A DNA stretch of 60,880 nt from Nitrospiraceae bacterium (GCA_003599425.1 QZKC01000052.1:1-60880); one strand, 5' to 3'; positions 4,645-22,023 are shown, counted from the stretch's first letter. Program-made: numbers and translations. The notes: a model not told the origin generated them from the letters alone.

Positions 4645-6015
4645 TTAAAATTCCTTTATTATCCTGTCTAATCTGTTCTCTACAAGCTGCCTTATCTCAG
4701 AAATACGTTGCTGAGATTGTGCCTCAAAGCGGAGCACAAGCACAGGCTGCGTGTTCGACGCACGGATGAGAGCCCAGCCATCGGGAAACTGTATCCTTAT
4801 TCCATCGATGGTAATAGATGGGTATTCGTTAAATGCTGTTTGAGCCTTTTCAGCGATCATGAATTTTATTTCATCAGGACAGTCAAACCTGATCTCCGGG
4901 GTTGCGACAGTGTGCGGAACATCTTTTAAAAGATTTTTCGTGCTGTACGGCATTCCGGCTTTTTTTATGATCTCAAGGAGCCTCAGGCTTGCGTAGACAG
5001 CGTCATCATAGCCGAAGTACCGGTGCGCGAAGAACAGATGCCCGCTCATCTCTCCGGCAAGAAGGGCATGCTCTTTTTTCAGTTTCTCCTTGATCAGGGA
5101 ATGCCCGGTCTTCCACATGATCGGGATCCCCCCATGAGCGGCTATATCATCATACATGGTCTGTGAACACTTCACCTCGCCGATTATCTTTGCTCCGGGA
5201 TTGTCTTTCAGTATGTCGCGTGAAAAGATTATCATCAGTTTGTCTCCCCATATGATATTGCCGTCCTCGTCTATCGCGCCGATCCTGTCGGCATCTCCGT
5301 CATATCCGATCCCGACATGTGCTTTTGTTTCTTTTACCTTGGCGATAAGGGCTGTAAGATTCTTCTCGACTGTCGGGTCAGGATGGTGATTCGGGAAATT
5401 GCCGTCCGGCTCACAGTAAAGCTCTATCACTTCCGCGCCGAGCGCTTTCATGATCTTTGGGGCAACAAGCCCGCCGGTGCCGTTCCCGGCATCAACAACA
5501 ACTTTTATTCCTGACAGGCTGGGGAATTTGTCTCTTAAATGATCAATGTAATCGTTGATTACCGGATACGTTTCTGTATTGCCGCGGCCTCTCTTAAAAT
5601 CATCAGCATCTATAATTTTTCTGACATCCTGAATTGCGTCTCCGAAAATAGTGGCCTTGCCCACGCTTAATTTGAAACCGTTGAATTCAGGAGGATTGTG
5701 GCTGCCGGTGATCATGACCCCGCCGTCAAGTGATAGTTTATACATCGAATAGTACTGGAGGGGCGTAGGACACACGCCGAGGTCAACAACATCAATTCCT
5801 GAACCTGTCAGCCCTTTCAACAGTGAGTCCCTGATCGCCGGGGAATGAAGACGGGCATCCCTGCCGACGCTTATCTTTGCTGTTTCTTTATTCAGGGATT
5901 TCAGTAAATACGAAGCGAATCCTCTGCCGATCAACTCAACCACATCCGGGGTCAGGTCTTTTTCCCATATCCCTCTGATGTCATACTGCCTGAATATTGA
6001 CGGATTGATCATCAA
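4645..6015 (-). CDS. Phosphomannomutase/phosphoglucomutase
   Basis: FRQYDIRGIW, MITGSHNPPEFNGFK (phosphoserine loop), GYDGDADRIGAID, GEMSGHLFF, RASNTQPVLVLRFE. Confidence 0.93.
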   Translation of the reverse strand: MMINPSIFRQYDIRGIWEKDLTPDVVELIGRGFASYLLKSLNKETAKISVGRDARLHSPAIRDSLLKGLTGSGIDVVDLGVCPTPLQYYSMYKLSLDGGVMITGSHNPPEFNGFKLSVGKATIFGDAIQDVRKIIDADDFKRGRGNTETYPVINDYIDHLRDKFPSLSGIKVVVDAGNGTGGLVAPKIMKALGAEVIELYCEPDGNFPNHHPDPTVEKNLTALIAKVKETKAHVGIGYDGDADRIGAIDEDGNIIWGDKLMIIFSRDILKDNPGAKIIGEVKCSQTMYDDIAAHGGIPIMWKTGHSLIKEKLKKEHALLAGEMSGHLFFAHRYFGYDDAVYASLRLLEIIKKAGMPYSTKNLLKDVPHTVATPEIRFDCPDEIKFMIAEKAQTAFNEYPSITIDGIRIQFPDGWALIRASNTQPVLVLRFEAQSQQRISEIRQLVENRLDRIIKEF

Positions 6016-6513: not shown

Positions 6514-6777
6514 ATGAATACCTTGACTGCGCAGGAAATTAAGAGAAAAGGAATTTCAGCTGTTGATGAAGTCCTTAAAGACGGCCCGGTCCATATTATT
6601 AAAAACAATCAGCCTCAGTATGTTGTCCTCTCTGAAGAGAGATACCGGGAATTGCTTGAGGCCGAGGGTGAGGCATATAATGCGCGCATCCGGGCATCCC
6701 TTGAGGACTTAAAAGCAGGAAGGGTAAAACGCGGGTCTGCAAAAGATCTGATAAAAGAATTGAAGCTCGAAGACTGA
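6514..6777 (+). CDS. Type II antitoxin, Phd/YefM family
   Basis: TAQEIKRKGISAVDEVLKDGPVHIIKNNQPQYVVLSEERYRELLE. Confidence 0.88.
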   Translation: MNTLTAQEIKRKGISAVDEVLKDGPVHIIKNNQPQYVVLSEERYRELLEAEGEAYNARIRASLEDLKAGRVKRGSAKDLIKELKLED

Positions 6778-6780
6778 GGC

Positions 6781-7062
6781 ATGTATACTCTTGTCTGGAC
6801 TGCTCATTTTACCCGCTCGGTTGAAAAGTTCAAGAAGCGCCATCCCGAACTGAAAAAGAAGCTTGCCCAGGTATTGCGCGACCTTGAGAAAGACCCCTTC
6901 CAGCCGCATCTTCATTATCATCATCTCGGGGGAAAGCTTAAAGGTATTCAGGCGGTAAGCATAAATGATAAATACCGGGTCTCGTTGACGGTTGTTATAA
7001 CAGAAAAAGAGATCGTTCTTCTCGATGTTGGGAGTCACGATGAGGTTTATGGAAAAAGATGA
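6781..7062 (+). CDS. Type II toxin, RelE/ParE superfamily
   Basis: YTLVWTAHFTRSVEKFKKRHPELKKKL...LKGIQAVSINDKYRVSLTV...IVLLDVGSHDEVY; 3 nt after antitoxin stop. Confidence 0.88.
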   Translation: MYTLVWTAHFTRSVEKFKKRHPELKKKLAQVLRDLEKDPFQPHLHYHHLGGKLKGIQAVSINDKYRVSLTVVITEKEIVLLDVGSHDEVYGKR

Positions 7063-7090: not shown

Positions 7091-7101
7091 TACAAAAGAC
7101 A

Positions 7102-7308
7102 TTGCCGGCGGGGTGGGTTATTAAGAAATTAGACGATGCCTGCAACATCATAATGGGACAATCGCCCCCCGGAAATACGTACAATAAAGATAAATCGGGG
7201 CTACCATTTTTCCAGGGGAAAGCAGAATTTGGAGTCCGTTATCCAACCGTTGTTAAATGGTGTTCAAACCCTAAAAAAGTTGCCTATAGAGGGGAGGAGG
7301 AGACATAA
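7102..7308 (+). pseudogene. Truncated type I restriction specificity subunit (HsdS N-terminal stub)
   Basis: PAGWVIKKLDDACNIIMGQSPPGNTYNKDKSGLPFFQGKAEFGVRYPTVVKWCSNPKKVAYRGE resembles the start of an HsdS target recognition domain; ends after ~68 codons. Confidence 0.82.
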
Positions 7309-7390
7309 CTTCCTGAAAGGTGAAGTCAAATTGACACTAATCAAATCTTTCATTGCAAAATCAGAAGCCAGAATTTAAAATCCATATACC

Positions 7391-7852
7391 ATGAAAACCA
7401 AGATAATTGACAGGGCAGAGATTCAAAACATTGCTGCACAACTCAAACAGCAGGGCAAAAAGATCGTCTTCACCAACGGCTGTTTCGACATCCTCCATGT
7501 CGGACATGTCCGCTATCTGATGGAGGCAAAAAAGCTCGGCGACATCCTTATTGTCGGCTTGAATGCGGACAGCTCTGTATCACGGATCAAACCCGGCAGG
7601 CCGGTCAATTCAGAGAAAGACAGGGCCGAGGTACTTGCAGCTCTCCATATGGTTGATTATGTAACGCTGTTCAGCGAAGACACTCCGTATGAGCTTATTA
7701 AGACTGTTCAGCCGGACGTCCTTGTAAAAGGCTCGGACTGGAATGTCAAAGATATCATCGGAGCAGACATTGCCAAGGAAGTCCGCACGATCCCCTTTAT
7801 TGAAGGGGTATCGACTACAGGGCTTATCAAAAAGATCCAGGATATGAAATAA
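7391..7852 (+). CDS. rfaE2: D-glycero-beta-D-manno-heptose 1-phosphate adenylyltransferase
   Basis: [20 protein letters not shown]...[17 protein letters not shown]...VKGSDW: cytidylyltransferase-like RfaE C-terminal family. Confidence 0.92.
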
Positions 7853-8002: not shown

Positions 8003-9364
8003 TTGAATAAAAAGATTACCAAAACATTGCTCTTATTTTGCCTGATCTTGTTTACCATTGTATTTTTTTCAAAGCAAGTTTCAGCGGAAGAAACAATCAA
8101 TTACGATACGGGGTTGCAGAAGGTGCGTGACTATACGAAGACAAAGAACTTCCAGGAGGCTGAAACCTTATTGAAGGGAATGCTTTCCCGGTATCCGGAC
8201 AATTCAGAACTGCTCGAAATGTTAGGCAGGATACTTTTCTGGGAAAAGAAATATGATGAGTCCCTGACTGTGTATAAAAGGCTTCTCGAGGTCAGACCAT
8301 CTCAGAAAGCAGAAGAGGATATGAACAGGGTCATCTCGGCAAAAGAGTTACAGATAGCTCAGGAACTCCAGGACCGCGGCAATATAAAAGAAGCGGAAGA
8401 GAGGCTGAAGTTACTTTATAATTCCGGCCGCGATCGTTACTCAGCAGGCTATCAGCTCGGAATCCTGTACATAAGGCAGCGAGACTATGATGAGGCCCTA
8501 AAAATATTTTCAGAGCTGAGGACATATTATCCTGAAGATTCCGGATTTGAAGAGCTCTATCTGGAGTCGTTGATACTTACAGGCAATATTAGTATGGCTA
8601 AAGAGGGTCTCAACAGCCTTCCAGAGGACAGGAGGGCAAAGCTGCATGACAGAAGGGACGACCTTTTTTATCGGGTCAGAAGAAATTACATGATGATCGG
8701 CACTACGTGGGGAGATTACGACCAGGGGATGAAAGATGAAAGACAGCATGACGTCAAATGGAGGCAGCGAATAGCTGAAAAGACATTTGTATTCAGCTTT
8801 TCGAATATTGAGAGATTCGGGATAACAGATTCACAGGCCGGGCTTGAGATTTATTCAAAGCTCGGTGAGAAAACAAAAAGATGGGGATATCTGTCTTTTA
8901 CTGCAAGCCCCGGAGCTGACTTTCTGCCCCGCTGGACTGCCGAAGCCGCGGCCTATCAGGGGTACAGGAACCTTGATCTATCGTTGGGCTATGCGCATAT
9001 GGAATTCAACAGTTCATCAGTTGACAGGCTTATGCCCGGAATTATCGTTTACCTGCCGTACAGGCTTGCCCTGAACGAGACCCTTTTCATAAACCTGCGC
9101 AGAGGTACAACCACCCTGCTCTCTAAGATCCATTATGAGCCCAATCATAAATTCAACTGTTATTACAGTTATTCCTCCGGAAGTTCTGCGGAGGAAATAG
9201 GTTCGCTTCAGGACATCGAGAAGATCAGCACGTATTCTCACGGGGCTGAATTTGAATACAGGTTTGTAGAGCAGTTCAGCATCGGAGCAGGACTGAAATT
9301 CAGCCGCAGAGAAAACAGCTACACCCAGAACGACATCACTTTTTTCGCGAAATACTGGTGGTAA
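8003..9364 (+). CDS. TPR-containing outer-membrane beta-barrel protein, YaiO-like
   Basis: Signal peptide, TPR-like repeats (FQEAETLLKGMLSRYPDNSELLEMLGRILFWEKKYDESL), C-terminal barrel ending in aromatics (FAKYWW); TTG start. Confidence 0.75.
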   Translation: MNKKITKTLLLFCLILFTIVFFSKQVSAEETINYDTGLQKVRDYTKTKNFQEAETLLKGMLSRYPDNSELLEMLGRILFWEKKYDESLTVYKRLLEVRPSQKAEEDMNRVISAKELQIAQELQDRGNIKEAEERLKLLYNSGRDRYSAGYQLGILYIRQRDYDEALKIFSELRTYYPEDSGFEELYLESLILTGNISMAKEGLNSLPEDRRAKLHDRRDDLFYRVRRNYMMIGTTWGDYDQGMKDERQHDVKWRQRIAEKTFVFSFSNIERFGITDSQAGLEIYSKLGEKTKRWGYLSFTASPGADFLPRWTAEAAAYQGYRNLDLSLGYAHMEFNSSSVDRLMPGIIVYLPYRLALNETLFINLRRGTTTLLSKIHYEPNHKFNCYYSYSSGSSAEEIGSLQDIEKISTYSHGAEFEYRFVEQFSIGAGLKFSRRENSYTQNDITFFAKYWW

Positions 9365-9365
9365 T

Positions 9366-10481
9366 ATGTATACCGCACAGGATACGATCTTCCCATACTT
9401 ACTGAAAGAATACCTGATCTATTTTATCGGATTTCTTACTGTTACCGTGCTGGCCCTTTTTTTGACCCTCATCGTTCACAAACTACATACTGAAAAAAAG
9501 GAAAGGAAGAAACGGAGATTTACTGCAGAATACAAGTCCGCTGTCTCTCAACATGTAAACTTTTATGCCCCGCTGGCTGTGTCACCTGAAAACGATCTGC
9601 AGTTCAAGGCCTTTGCAGATGTTTGCGTCGACATGCTTGCAGGCGCTTCACCGTCAGAAGCTGAGAAAATAAAGTCTCTTCTGAAAGAGCTCCAGGTAGT
9701 GGACCATTTCAAGAGAGTTGCAGCTTCCGCATCATGGACCAAAAGGTTTTACGCAGTAGAAATACTTGGGTTCTTCATGATCGATGACCTGAAGGGATTT
9801 TTCAGAGAAGTTCTCATCAGGGACAGCAGCCGGGAAGTGAGATCAAGGGCTTTATGGGCGTTGAGCCTTATCGCGGATAAAGAGGATATTGAACTTATCA
9901 CCCGGCTTCTTGCAACAGATATCTCAAATTCTTCAAAGTTCAATGTGTATATCTATTCGAACGTAATCAGTTCATGCAGGAAGCGGGGAATACAGGACTC
10001 TGTGACAGATTTTATAAAGGGCATGAAAGAAGATCAGGCTATGCCTATCATTCTTAAAAGAGATTTGATCGAGGCGTGCGGGGTTTCGGGACTTAAAGAA
10101 GCCGCTGGTTTGATCATCGGTTATTTTTCCTCACATCAGCATGATTCCCTCATGAAGATCGCCTGCCTTCGGGGGTTAGGCGCACTCGGCAGCCTGAATG
10201 CTGGGATCATAATGAACAACCTTACTGACAAAGACTGGAGGGTCCGCGCAGTTGCTGCAAAGGCTTCACATACGCCTGAGGATACCGTCATATCAGAATT
10301 ACAGAAACTGCTCTATGATCCTGTTTATATCGTAAGAATAAATTCAGCGAGGGCCCTGTCCAGATCAGGAACAAAAGGTTCATTGATACTCGAAAGAGAA
10401 CGGAATTCAGAGGACAGATTCGTGAGGGATACGGCGCGTTTTATACTGGAAGAGGCGGAGGGCAGATGTTTGAAAGTGTAA
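9366..10481 (+). CDS. Membrane-anchored HEAT-repeat protein
   Basis: N-terminal TM (YLIYFIGFLTVTVLALFLTLIV) then HEAT-like repeats (SREVRSRALWALSLIADKEDIELITRLL; DKDWRVRAVAAKAS; PVYIVRINSARALSRSG). Confidence 0.75.
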   Translation: MYTAQDTIFPYLLKEYLIYFIGFLTVTVLALFLTLIVHKLHTEKKERKKRRFTAEYKSAVSQHVNFYAPLAVSPENDLQFKAFADVCVDMLAGASPSEAEKIKSLLKELQVVDHFKRVAASASWTKRFYAVEILGFFMIDDLKGFFREVLIRDSSREVRSRALWALSLIADKEDIELITRLLATDISNSSKFNVYIYSNVISSCRKRGIQDSVTDFIKGMKEDQAMPIILKRDLIEACGVSGLKEAAGLIIGYFSSHQHDSLMKIACLRGLGALGSLNAGIIMNNLTDKDWRVRAVAAKASHTPEDTVISELQKLLYDPVYIVRINSARALSRSGTKGSLILERERNSEDRFVRDTARFILEEAEGRCLKV

Positions 10482-11884
10482 CTGCTTTTTTATGGTATTT
10501 CCAGATCGTGATACTCATATATTTTGTCATAGCCAATGGCACATACACTCTCTTTACACTGCTCTCGCTCAGAGACATCACTAAATATGCCTCCATCGTA
10601 ACGCGCCATAACATAAACACCCTTTTGTCGGGTGTGTTCTATAAGCCGTTATCCATAATTGTCCCCGCATATAATGAGGAAGCTACAATAGCAACAAGCA
10701 TAACATCGCTCCTTTCGCTCCAATACCCGGAATATGAGGTCATCGTTGTCAATGACGGGTCCACGGACGATACAATGGCTAAACTGATAGAGACTTTCAA
10801 GCTTGTAAAAATTGACAGGGTAACAAGGCTGAATTTAATTCACAAACCTGTCCGTGAGATTTATGTCTCTCTCAATTACCCGAATCTCCTCATCTTGAAC
10901 AAGGAAAGGGGAGGAAAGGCTGACGCGCTGAATGCCGGGATCAATGCCTCAACTTTTCCGCTCTTCTGCAGTATTGACGCCGACTCCCTGCTCGAGAATG
11001 AAGCCCTTTTGAGGGCAGCACGTCTTTTTGTCGAAGATAAAAGGGTTATCGCCACCGGTGGTATTGTGAGGGTACTGAACGGTTCGAGGATCGAAAACGG
11101 GGCAGTGACTGAAATACTTGCACCAAAAAAGATGATCGAATGCTTCCAGGCCGTGGAATACATAAAAGGTTTCCTGTCGGGCAGGACCGCGTGGAATTAT
11201 TTCGGAAGCCTCCTCATTATATCAGGTGCTTTTGGGATCTTCAGGAAAGACGTAGTGCTTGCGATAAAAGGATACAGGGAAACGGTCGGAGAAGATATGG
11301 ACCTCGTGGTAAGGCTCCACAAACACTGCCGCGAACAGAAGATCCCATATAAGATTATGTTTGTTCCTGATCCCATATGTTTTACGCAGGTACCGTCTGA
11401 CATGAAATCACTCCTGGACCAGCGGAACCGATGGCACCGGGGGCTGATAGACAGTCTGTTATACAGTAAAAAGATGTTCCTGAACCCCAGATACGGTGCA
11501 GTCGGCATATTAGGATATCTGTATTTCTGCCTTCTGGAGGGACTGGGCCCTATAGTGGAATTTTTAGGGTATGTCGGATTTATTCTGTTTTTCCTCTTCG
11601 GCTATATAAACAGTGATTTTGCGCTGCTGTTTTTTGTGGTGGCAGTGCTCTGGGGCATGTGGATAAATATCGGTTCTGTGCTGCTGGATGACATCCTGTA
11701 TAAACGGTATAAGCAAGTGAAGGACCTTACGAAACTGTGCCTGTACGGATTTTTCGAGATGCTCGGATACAGGCAGATCATAACCATTGAACGCATGCTT
11801 GCCACGTTTATGTTCTGGAGGAAGAGCTGGGGCAAGGCCAAACGTCAAAAGTTAAGGATGAACGAAACCCATGGGCATACTTAA
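10466..11884 (+). CDS. Processive family 2 glycosyltransferase (polysaccharide synthase-like)
   Basis: SIIVPAYNEEATI, VVNDGSTDDT, CSIDADSLL, GEDMDLVVRL, QRNRWHRG (QxxRW), multiple TMs; overlaps upstream gene. Confidence 0.9.
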   Translation: MFESVTAFLWYFQIVILIYFVIANGTYTLFTLLSLRDITKYASIVTRHNINTLLSGVFYKPLSIIVPAYNEEATIATSITSLLSLQYPEYEVIVVNDGSTDDTMAKLIETFKLVKIDRVTRLNLIHKPVREIYVSLNYPNLLILNKERGGKADALNAGINASTFPLFCSIDADSLLENEALLRAARLFVEDKRVIATGGIVRVLNGSRIENGAVTEILAPKKMIECFQAVEYIKGFLSGRTAWNYFGSLLIISGAFGIFRKDVVLAIKGYRETVGEDMDLVVRLHKHCREQKIPYKIMFVPDPICFTQVPSDMKSLLDQRNRWHRGLIDSLLYSKKMFLNPRYGAVGILGYLYFCLLEGLGPIVEFLGYVGFILFFLFGYINSDFALLFFVVAVLWGMWINIGSVLLDDILYKRYKQVKDLTKLCLYGFFEMLGYRQIITIERMLATFMFWRKSWGKAKRQKLRMNETHGHT

Positions 11885-12392
11885 AAAAATATTTTATCTC
11901 TTGCCGAGGCTTATACTTTTTTCCATCTTTGGAGTCTATGCAGTCTTTGCGCTCCTGTCATATTTTGATTATATCGAGCGGTTCCTGTTCCCTCTCCATT
12001 TTATCCAGGGAGAAGTTCAGAAACTCGATGATAATATCCTCCTCGGCCCCTATCCTCACTTTGACGAACTCAAGAAACTGCAAAAGGAGACCGGAATCAA
12101 CACTGTCATCAGCCTGCTGAACGACAGCCTGCCGCAGGAAAAGGCCCTTCTCAACCGGGAAAGAAAAATAGCAGAGAGACTGGGGATAGACCTCTACAGT
12201 TATCCCATGACGTACTTCAATTTAAACGGGACGCATAACCGCCGCAATGCCGAAGAGATCAGCGCTCTGGTCAGGAAAATAAATGGGAGCAAGATATATA
12301 TCCACTGCTATCTCGGCAGGCACAGGGTAAATTTTGTCAGAGACAATCTGATAAAGGCGGGGCTGGGACGTGAAGTTTCGGCTCACAATTGA
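11871..12392 (+). CDS. Dual-specificity/tyrosine phosphatase-like protein with N-terminal TM
   Basis: NILLGPYPHFDELKKLQKETGINTVISLL...IYIHCYLGRHR: HCX5R catalytic loop. Confidence 0.75.
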   Translation: MGILKKIFYLLPRLILFSIFGVYAVFALLSYFDYIERFLFPLHFIQGEVQKLDDNILLGPYPHFDELKKLQKETGINTVISLLNDSLPQEKALLNRERKIAERLGIDLYSYPMTYFNLNGTHNRRNAEEISALVRKINGSKIYIHCYLGRHRVNFVRDNLIKAGLGREVSAHN

Positions 12393-19755: not shown

Positions 19756-22023
19756 ATGACAAAGGAAAAATTAATAAAAAACATCTTTCTTGTTTCTGTT
19801 GCAATCGCAATTATTTTTCCGCTGACCAATATCTATATCATTTTTCCTGCGTTCACAAAACTTCTTATAACGAACACGGAACATGAAGCTGAGCGCGTGG
19901 GCTCTCACCTTGCGAGCATGATCCTGAAACATGACCATGAGCTGACCCGCGAGAGTGTATCAGAACATTTTTCAGGCGGAAAATCCGATGTTGTTCTGAA
20001 AGATTTCCACCTCTTGAAACTGAAAATATTCTCCCCTTCAGGACAGATCATTCACTCCTCTGACCAGTCTGAGACAGGGGAAATGAACACAAACCATTAC
20101 TTTAATGAAATCGTGGCAGGGGGAAAGCCATACACAAATGTTGTGAAAAAGGGCACTCAATCCCTTGAAGGGGAAACCGTGACTGCTGATATTGTCGAAA
20201 CATATGTCCCTGTAATGCGCAATGGACAGTTCGCCGGCGCCTTTGAGATCTACTATGACATAACCGGGAGGAGCCAGATTCTTAACTCCCTGGTGTTACG
20301 TTCTTCTTTTATTCCACTTGGGATTATGATGTGTTTCCTGGTCGTCATTATCATTATCCTGTTTAAGGGCAACAAAGCTCTCGATGATGATAAAGCATAT
20401 ATTTTGCCTAAGCGGTATCTGTCGCCTTACTATTCATTTTTGCTGCTTACGGTATCGATATTTATAGCGGAAACGATCATTATGCTGCTCATTGCAGCGT
20501 TCCCTTCACTTTCCCAGTGGAACATGGCCATCCTCGATGCTGTACTGCTGGTTATCATAATTTCTCCCACAATTTATTTTTTCCTGATGAGACCCCTGCT
20601 GGCACATATTGCTGAACGCCAAAAAACTGAAGAGCGCATCAAGGAAATAGCCTTTTATGATGAAGTGACAAAATTGCCGAACCGTAATCTGTTTCAGGAC
20701 CGGCTGAAAAAAGCTATTGAACATGCCGGGCGCTACAAAAGATGCATGACGGTGATCTCTCTCGATATAGACAATTTCAAGAGGATCAATGACACCTTCG
20801 AACACAAAGTGGGGGATCTGCTCCTCAGAGAAGTGGCTGAACGGCTGAACAGGTGTGTGCGGGCCTCTGACTCCATCTCACGACCTGGTGAAGACAGCGC
20901 CGTCGGTACGGTTGCCCGCATTGGAGGCGATGAATTCATTGTGCTGCTGTCAGAGATCAGTTCTGCCCTGGACGCATCGAGGGTTGCTCAGCGTATCCTT
21001 GACGCCATTTCCAGCCCGTTTCAGCTTGCCGGACACGATATTTTCATCACAGCGAGCACAGGCATTGCGCTGTATCCTCAAAATGGTGAAGACCTTGACA
21101 GCCTTCTTAAGAATGCGGATACAGCCATGCATCATGCAAAAGATCTCGGCAGGAATAATTATCAGTTTCATGAAGATGCCATGAATGTTTTATCCCTGAA
21201 GCGCCTCACCATTGAGAATGAACTGAGAAAGGCGGTGGAACGGGACGAGTTTCTCCTTTACTATCAACCGCAGATCGATATGGTCATGGGCAGGGTGATC
21301 GGCTTTGAGGCGCTTATCAGATGGGACCATCCCGTAAAGGGACTTATTCCCCCGGGTGAGTTTATCCCTGTTGCTGAAGAAAGCGGCCTCATATCGCTGA
21401 TAGATAAGTGGGTGCTGAAAAATGTGTGCTGGCAGCTTAAACACTGGGAGGCGTCGGGCATTGACACACTCAGGGTCTCATTGAACCTTTCTGCGCAGCA
21501 GTTCATGAACAGGGATCTGCCGGATATGGTATCACGCTCGGTTGATATGTTCTCAGTTGATCCGCGCAAACTGGAATTTGAGATCACGGAGGGGGTGCTT
21601 ATGCAGAATGCCGAAATGGCCACGGGGATACTGAAGTCCCTGAAGGATATGGGCATCCGGCTGGCAATGGATGATTTCGGCACAGGGTACTCCTCCTTCA
21701 GTTATCTGAAGCGGCTGCCTCTTGACATCATCAAGATAGACCGTTCGTTCATTAATGATGTCCCCGGCGACCCTGATGATGCAGCTATAGTTACGGCCAT
21801 AATCGCGATGGCAAAAAACCTGAGACTCGATATTGTTGCCGAAGGAGTAGAAAAGATAGAGCAAAAAAAGTTTCTGGTGGAACACGGGTGCATGACTGCG
21901 CAGGGGTATCTGTTCAGTGTCCCTTTGTCTGCCGAAAAAGCTTCTTTGCTGCTTCAGGAGAATGCTGTGTTCTGGCATCATGGCCATGGATTTAAGGCAG
22001 GGTGCGGCTCAATGAGTCCGTAA
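19756..22023 (+). CDS. Membrane sensor GGDEF-EAL protein
   Basis: Two TM regions around an extracytoplasmic domain; RIGGDEFIVLL; FEALIRWDHP; DDFGTGYSS; KIDRSFI. Confidence 0.93.
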   Translation: MTKEKLIKNIFLVSVAIAIIFPLTNIYIIFPAFTKLLITNTEHEAERVGSHLASMILKHDHELTRESVSEHFSGGKSDVVLKDFHLLKLKIFSPSGQIIHSSDQSETGEMNTNHYFNEIVAGGKPYTNVVKKGTQSLEGETVTADIVETYVPVMRNGQFAGAFEIYYDITGRSQILNSLVLRSSFIPLGIMMCFLVVIIIILFKGNKALDDDKAYILPKRYLSPYYSFLLLTVSIFIAETIIMLLIAAFPSLSQWNMAILDAVLLVIIISPTIYFFLMRPLLAHIAERQKTEERIKEIAFYDEVTKLPNRNLFQDRLKKAIEHAGRYKRCMTVISLDIDNFKRINDTFEHKVGDLLLREVAERLNRCVRASDSISRPGEDSAVGTVARIGGDEFIVLLSEISSALDASRVAQRILDAISSPFQLAGHDIFITASTGIALYPQNGEDLDSLLKNADTAMHHAKDLGRNNYQFHEDAMNVLSLKRLTIENELRKAVERDEFLLYYQPQIDMVMGRVIGFEALIRWDHPVKGLIPPGEFIPVAEESGLISLIDKWVLKNVCWQLKHWEASGIDTLRVSLNLSAQQFMNRDLPDMVSRSVDMFSVDPRKLEFEITEGVLMQNAEMATGILKSLKDMGIRLAMDDFGTGYSSFSYLKRLPLDIIKIDRSFINDVPGDPDDAAIVTAIIAMAKNLRLDIVAEGVEKIEQKKFLVEHGCMTAQGYLFSVPLSAEKASLLLQENAVFWHHGHGFKAGCGSMSP

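Follow-up and report, generated by a model that had tools for sequence, protein, structure and literature searches.

A candidate synthase-dependent exopolysaccharide locus pairing a HEAT-repeat protein with a GT2 synthase in a Nitrospiraceae bacterium

The window, a stretch of 60,880 nucleotides from a Nitrospiraceae bacterium (assembly of 2.9 Mb in 106 contigs, approximately 90% complete), contains four co-directional genes on the + strand at positions 8003-12392, which probably encode a synthase-dependent exopolysaccharide system (probability about 0.7). Comparison with related loci indicates that a HEAT-repeat protein and a family 2 glycosyltransferase (GT2) form the near-constant core of this system, while the outer-membrane barrel appears to be its variable part, mostly absent in Gram-positives. 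ORF calling recovered all four genes exactly where the original prediction had placed them, tightly spaced or overlapping: a 1-nt gap separates genes 1 and 2, and overlaps of 16 nt and 14 nt join genes 2/3 and 3/4, respectively, so that a single transcript is likely. HMM matches, motifs and structural models agree with the four proposed identities (barrel, HEAT, GT2, phosphatase):

8003-9364, + strand: gene 1, YaiO-family outer-membrane export protein (TIGR04390 and PF19413 over cut-off; model; C-terminal Trp)
9366-10481, + strand: gene 2, HEAT-repeat protein with one N-terminal TM helix (PF13646 over cut-off)
10466-11884, + strand: gene 3, predicted multi-TM GT2 polysaccharide synthase (PF13641 and PF00535 over cut-off; NDGS, DAD, ED and QRNRW motifs)
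11871-12392, + strand: gene 4, TM-anchored CX5R phosphatase, catalytic domain predicted extracytoplasmic (GPYP and HCYLG..R conserved; model)
12303-12326, + strand: phosphatase P-loop HCYLGRHR (residues 145-152 in the alignment)

Several further genes surround the operon. A cytidylyltransferase-like gene (7391-7852; PF01467; RfaE2-like by eye) lies 150 bases upstream, and a four-domain phosphoglucomutase/phosphomannomutase is encoded nearby on the - strand (4645-6015); it could supply sugar-phosphate precursors to the operon. Positions 6514-6777 and 6781-7062 likely encode a type II toxin-antitoxin pair, consisting of a Phd/YefM-like antitoxin, judged by eye, and a YafQ-family toxin (PF15738 at 2.2e-8). 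A remnant at about 7100-7310 resembles, by eye only, a broken type I restriction specificity subunit.

The predicted YaiO-type barrel and GT2 synthase

Gene 1 starts with a TTG codon preceded by AAAGGA, and its product passes both curated cut-offs for the YaiO family, scoring 65.1 bits against TIGR04390 (YaiO domain; cut-off 32) and 45.1 bits against PF19413 (cut-off 23.9), with additional TPR matches. The AlphaFold model (pLDDT 90.6; 20-row alignment) displays an N-terminal signal helix, a TPR solenoid (residues 34-225, about 8102-8677) and a 14-strand barrel (residues 229-452, about 8687-9358). It resembles, among other PDB entries, the 14-strand porin OmpG as well as BcsC and PelB; the presence of these two polysaccharide exporters among the model's matches is consistent with an exopolysaccharide system. 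A C-terminal F, W or Y is typical of outer-membrane barrels and is found in 35 of 36 relatives of gene 1, the window protein ending in Trp. Both the HMMs and the model thus point to an outer-membrane barrel with periplasmic TPRs, as used in synthase-dependent secretion, in agreement with the signal peptide, TPRs and barrel-like C-terminus read earlier from the sequence. The case that gene 1 might encode no outer-membrane barrel, named at that time as a reason to abandon the proposal, did not arise, the C-terminal domain being a predicted 14-strand barrel.

The membrane GT2 encoded by gene 3 carries the D, DxD, ED and QxxRW signatures that had been described as processive (NDGS 96-99, DAD 171-173, ED 276-277, QRNRW 319-323), and these are kept in 76-81 of 82 relatives. 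They suggest a processive enzyme, while motifs alone are no proof of processivity and QxxRW-type motifs occur in some non-processive GT2s, too. The best NCBIfam match is PgaC_IcaA at 119.3 bits, below the equivalog cut-off of 422.3, and membership in the PNAG (Pga) system was rejected on this basis. The GT2 shares 31% identity over 299 aa with a PgaC from the same bacterial family and 29% over 222 aa with YaiP. In a tree, HEAT-associated GT2s are split from PgaC, YaiP, NfrB and other GT2s by a branch with support of 93, a split that constitutes moderate evidence because the tree was built by a quick method and has long outgroup branches. The GT2 therefore seems nearer to PgaC types than to YaiP, within a separate HEAT-associated branch.

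The low PgaC_IcaA score would also fit a non-processive GT2 whose acceptor is a lipid or envelope component, with barrel and HEAT protein serving this glycoconjugate instead of polymer export. This explanation is improbable, since the closest named families are polymer synthases, and the TPR-barrel partner and the glycosidase-like neighbours seen in related loci fit the export of a polymer. Domain scans detected no PilZ domain in the GT2 or HEAT protein and no recognisable PgaD or BcsB partner among the four proteins, as had been noted before; the HEAT protein is present instead.

Conservation and likely role of the HEAT-GT2 pair

Gene 2 matches HEAT_2 (PF13646) with 59.2 bits (cut-off 27.7), the repeats following a single N-terminal TM helix. 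Lysine and arginine are more frequent after this helix than before it in 59 of 62 HEAT proteins (mean 4.9 versus 1.0), which by the charge rule predicts a cytosolic HEAT domain. The catalytic domain of such GT2 synthases lies in the cytosol, and both domains are thus predicted on the same side of the membrane.

Scanning a species-genome collection with the GT2 confirmed at least 459 relatives, the best 80 of which were analysed by six-frame HMM search; as resemblance to this GT2 was the criterion of selection, the counts describe a subfamily and not GT2s in general. Among these best 80 of at least 459, a HEAT homologue is found directly upstream of the GT2 in 79 loci, L077 being the one relative lacking it, and 62 have a receiver domain in the 4 kb upstream. 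Of the same 80 loci, 27 show TPR/YaiO matches upstream and 8 show them downstream, some of the latter perhaps being TPR alone. The original prediction had placed the HEAT gene between a yaiO-yaiP pair, but the adjacency in 79 loci and the variability of the barrel show that the HEAT-GT2 pair is the more constant unit. The rows of the GT2 tree span 16 named phyla, and plasmid records with HEAT-GT2 come from Mesorhizobium, Erythrobacter, Deinococcus, Paenibacillus and the archaeon Halosolutus. The Mesorhizobium plasmid carries an annotated response regulator, a YaiO barrel, HEAT and GT2, and on the haloarchaeal plasmid a sugar nucleotidyltransferase gene and glmS come after HEAT-GT2. As a control, the HEAT model was run on the yai, pga, nfr and bcs stretches of E. 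coli and on 13 further GT2 loci from relatives, with flanks of some 1.5 kb; it matched nothing. The adjacency in 79 loci and the recurring gene order described below exceed what chance would give.

GT2 and HEAT distances correlate with a rho of 0.72 (permutations at most 0.23), as would be predicted for co-inheritance. Furthermore, HEAT and GT2 are fused in a single ORF in five loci (L052, L060, L097, L099 and L101), which lie in one clade and thus indicate one fusion event. Such natural fusion speaks for a joint function of the two domains. Near-universal adjacency, fusions and predicted cytosolic topology make the HEAT protein a likely synthase partner, either as co-synthase or as regulator, which supports its earlier description as a possible co-polymerase or regulator. 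Besides the limits of the motifs, the single origin of the fusions and the exception L077 count against the exopolysaccharide reading, as does the lack, in the window copy, of a receiver and of the first glycosidase-like family described below. In its favour stand the domain scores and barrel model, the HEAT adjacency and predicted cytosolic topology, upstream receivers, fusions, the Mesorhizobium gene set, GGDEF domains, glycosidase-like neighbours and haloarchaeal sugar genes.

Twelve larger receiver proteins were scanned, of which seven contain GGDEF and three Hpt, one of them together with GGDEF; two, both from the fusion clade, additionally contain an ODP domain. ODP-GGDEF-receiver proteins are encoded directly before the fusions at L060 and L099, which hints at a signal linked to oxygen or redox state. 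In the window copy, no receiver gene adjoins the cassette. Two GGDEF-EAL proteins (37-2007 and 19756-22023), one with a Tll0287 sensor domain, indicate c-di-GMP signalling genes near the operon, outside it.

That the HEAT protein carries a signal to the synthase is given roughly even odds. It might instead be a structural or assembly scaffold without signalling, the receivers acting on transcription or elsewhere, and the window copy and some relatives, which lack an adjacent receiver, would fit this proposal. This is nonetheless the less likely of the two, considering the upstream receivers in 62 of the best 80 loci, and the fact that many receivers stand alone without an output domain, which suggests contact between proteins.

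Two secreted families accompany related loci. The first, present in 14 loci, resembles a putative glycoside hydrolase of known structure from Cellulomonas (4.5e-20) and has no match in the window's own genome, whose assembly is about 90% complete. The second (15 loci, including L035, L036, L040, L060 and L099), with proteins of 700-1050 aa, is glycosidase-like only by eye and has no Pfam or PDB match; it is possibly an undescribed glycosidase-like family.

The complete order barrel-HEAT-GT2-phosphatase, whose conservation had been proposed as a check, occurs in the window and in five other genomes from two phyla, namely G014, the WY3.bin163 MAG (seen again as G137), G096, G095 and Geobacter argillaceus. 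Four of these six members are present on the tree and form one clade (support 100). G137 belongs to the same class as the window genome and carries the same cassette; in the WY3.bin163 MAG the four-gene set is flanked by a receiver in front and a glycosidase-like gene behind, both missing from the window copy. A variant without the phosphatase, comprising a HEAT protein of 1100-1400 aa and GT2, is found in some close kin, namely G001, G017, G020, G022 and G029. HEAT genes of this length precede the GT2 at L022, L023, L024, L025, L026 and L075, and the hosts of this variant are close kin of the window and a Myxococcota MAG (shorter contig).

The putative accessory phosphatase

Gene 4 has no Pfam match above cut-off and encodes one TM helix and a CX5R loop, HCYLGRHR at residues 145-152. 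The Cys and Arg of this loop are kept in nine homologues, which share a G(P/S)YP-type motif and HCYLG..R. The AlphaFold model (pLDDT 88.7) adopts a phosphatase fold with LSF2 as the top match (E 1.0e-6, TM about 0.53), followed by DUF442, laforin, PFA-DSP1, SIW14 and TpbA. A single-sequence search of the PDB returned nothing, and the best PDB matches of the profile, SIW14 (0.0079) and LSF2 (0.036), are weak by themselves. Catalytic loop and fold together place gene 4 among the CX5R dual-specificity-type phosphatases, and its TM anchor and position after the GT2 agree with the membrane-anchored enzyme foreseen. It shares the CX5R fold with the glucan phosphatases LSF2 and laforin, with the PFA-DSP SIW14, and with TpbA, a periplasmic phosphatase linked to Pel; a GKHR-type P-loop is common to SIW14 and gene 4. 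In contrast, identity to these proteins is about 15-20%, the TM anchor and GPYP motif are its own features, and there is no evident Asp general acid, as no conserved Asp lies between PM and HC in the sequence alignment of the homologues. The likeness to glucan phosphatases is thus best taken as fold resemblance only, and the papers searched on glucan phosphatases gave nothing useful.

Judged by inspection of the window protein and eight relatives, the catalytic domain seems to lie outside the cytoplasm. An action of the phosphatase on the HEAT or GT2 domains in the cytosol is therefore improbable, and the proposal that it could be the co-polymerase or regulator was not upheld; it is rather an occasional add-on, whose substrate would most likely be the polymer or a periplasmic partner. 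Its presence downstream in only 7 of the best 80 of at least 459 loci, and the position of more distant members in the class, away from a cassette, could mean that it is a passenger gene, merely sharing a transcript. We regard this as unlikely, because the reading frames overlap and the same position is kept in six genomes. In addition, the distribution of the phosphatase across the tree requires five or more changes, and the enzyme is associated with the cassette in Gemmatimonadota, Actinomycetota, Bacillota and Pseudomonadota. In Bacillota the phosphatase domain is repeated, and later copies lack the Cys, by eye.

Proposed mechanism and related systems

With gene content, order and conservation established and folds and topology predicted, we infer a polymer, its processive synthesis, a HEAT-GT2 contact, a signal route and a phosphatase substrate as follows. 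The GT2 would polymerise a sugar from a nucleotide-sugar donor and pass the polymer through the inner membrane; an aminosugar polymer is the best guess, weakly suggested by the likeness to PgaC and the haloarchaeal glmS neighbour. The HEAT protein would be the usual cytosolic, membrane-tethered partner of the synthase, standing where other systems have a partner of the PgaD/BcsB/PilZ type; it probably connects the synthase to a phosphorelay or c-di-GMP input, in most relatives through a co-encoded receiver/GGDEF protein. In the periplasm, the TPRs would lead the polymer to the YaiO-type barrel of 14 strands for export, and the phosphatase, an accessory of some loci only, would work outside the cytoplasm on the polymer or on a partner in the periplasm. 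A more far-reaching version, speculative and with slim chances, proposes an unnamed synthase class of bacteria and haloarchaea, in which the synthase is bound by the HEAT solenoid and switched by it in response to a phosphorylated receiver, replacing the PilZ/PgaD c-di-GMP switch, while in this clade a periplasmic enzyme with glucan-phosphatase fold trims phosphate from the polymer. HEAT-GT2 is probably a common route to surface or biofilm polymers, now annotated under unlinked generic names. The cassette predicts a control step from receiver via HEAT to synthase, and the natural fusions provide material for structural work.

A published description of the HEAT-GT2/YaiO cassette was not found, which is weak evidence as most subscription literature lay outside the search; the EmbRS gene cluster was rejected as a literature lead, being a different cluster. 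On this basis the HEAT pairing may be undescribed, and the nearest known systems are PgaABCD, NfrAB, BcsABC and yaiO/yaiP. The comparison with E. coli yaiS-yaiP-yaiX-yaiO held for the YaiO-family barrel near a GT2, but not for the GT2 itself, which is nearer to PgaC. YaiO-YaiP was rejected as a direct model, as the GT2s are weakly similar, gene order and neighbours differ, and the E. coli locus lacks HEAT. BcsABC combines the TPR-barrel BcsC with the processive GT2 BcsA, but its BcsB and PilZ have no counterpart in the cassette. NfrA-NfrB-YbcH of E. coli likewise contains a TPR outer-membrane barrel and an inner-membrane exopolysaccharide synthase, NfrB, with its own c-di-GMP-binding MshEN domain (PMC8669469); in contrast, GT2 similarity is negligible and HEAT is absent. 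PgaABCD of E. coli and relatives has the closest GT2, PgaC, and joins a TPR-barrel exporter and membrane GT2 to a small TM partner, whereas the cassette, with a GT2 at 119 bits against the 422-bit PgaC cut-off, contains a HEAT protein in place of PgaB or PgaD.
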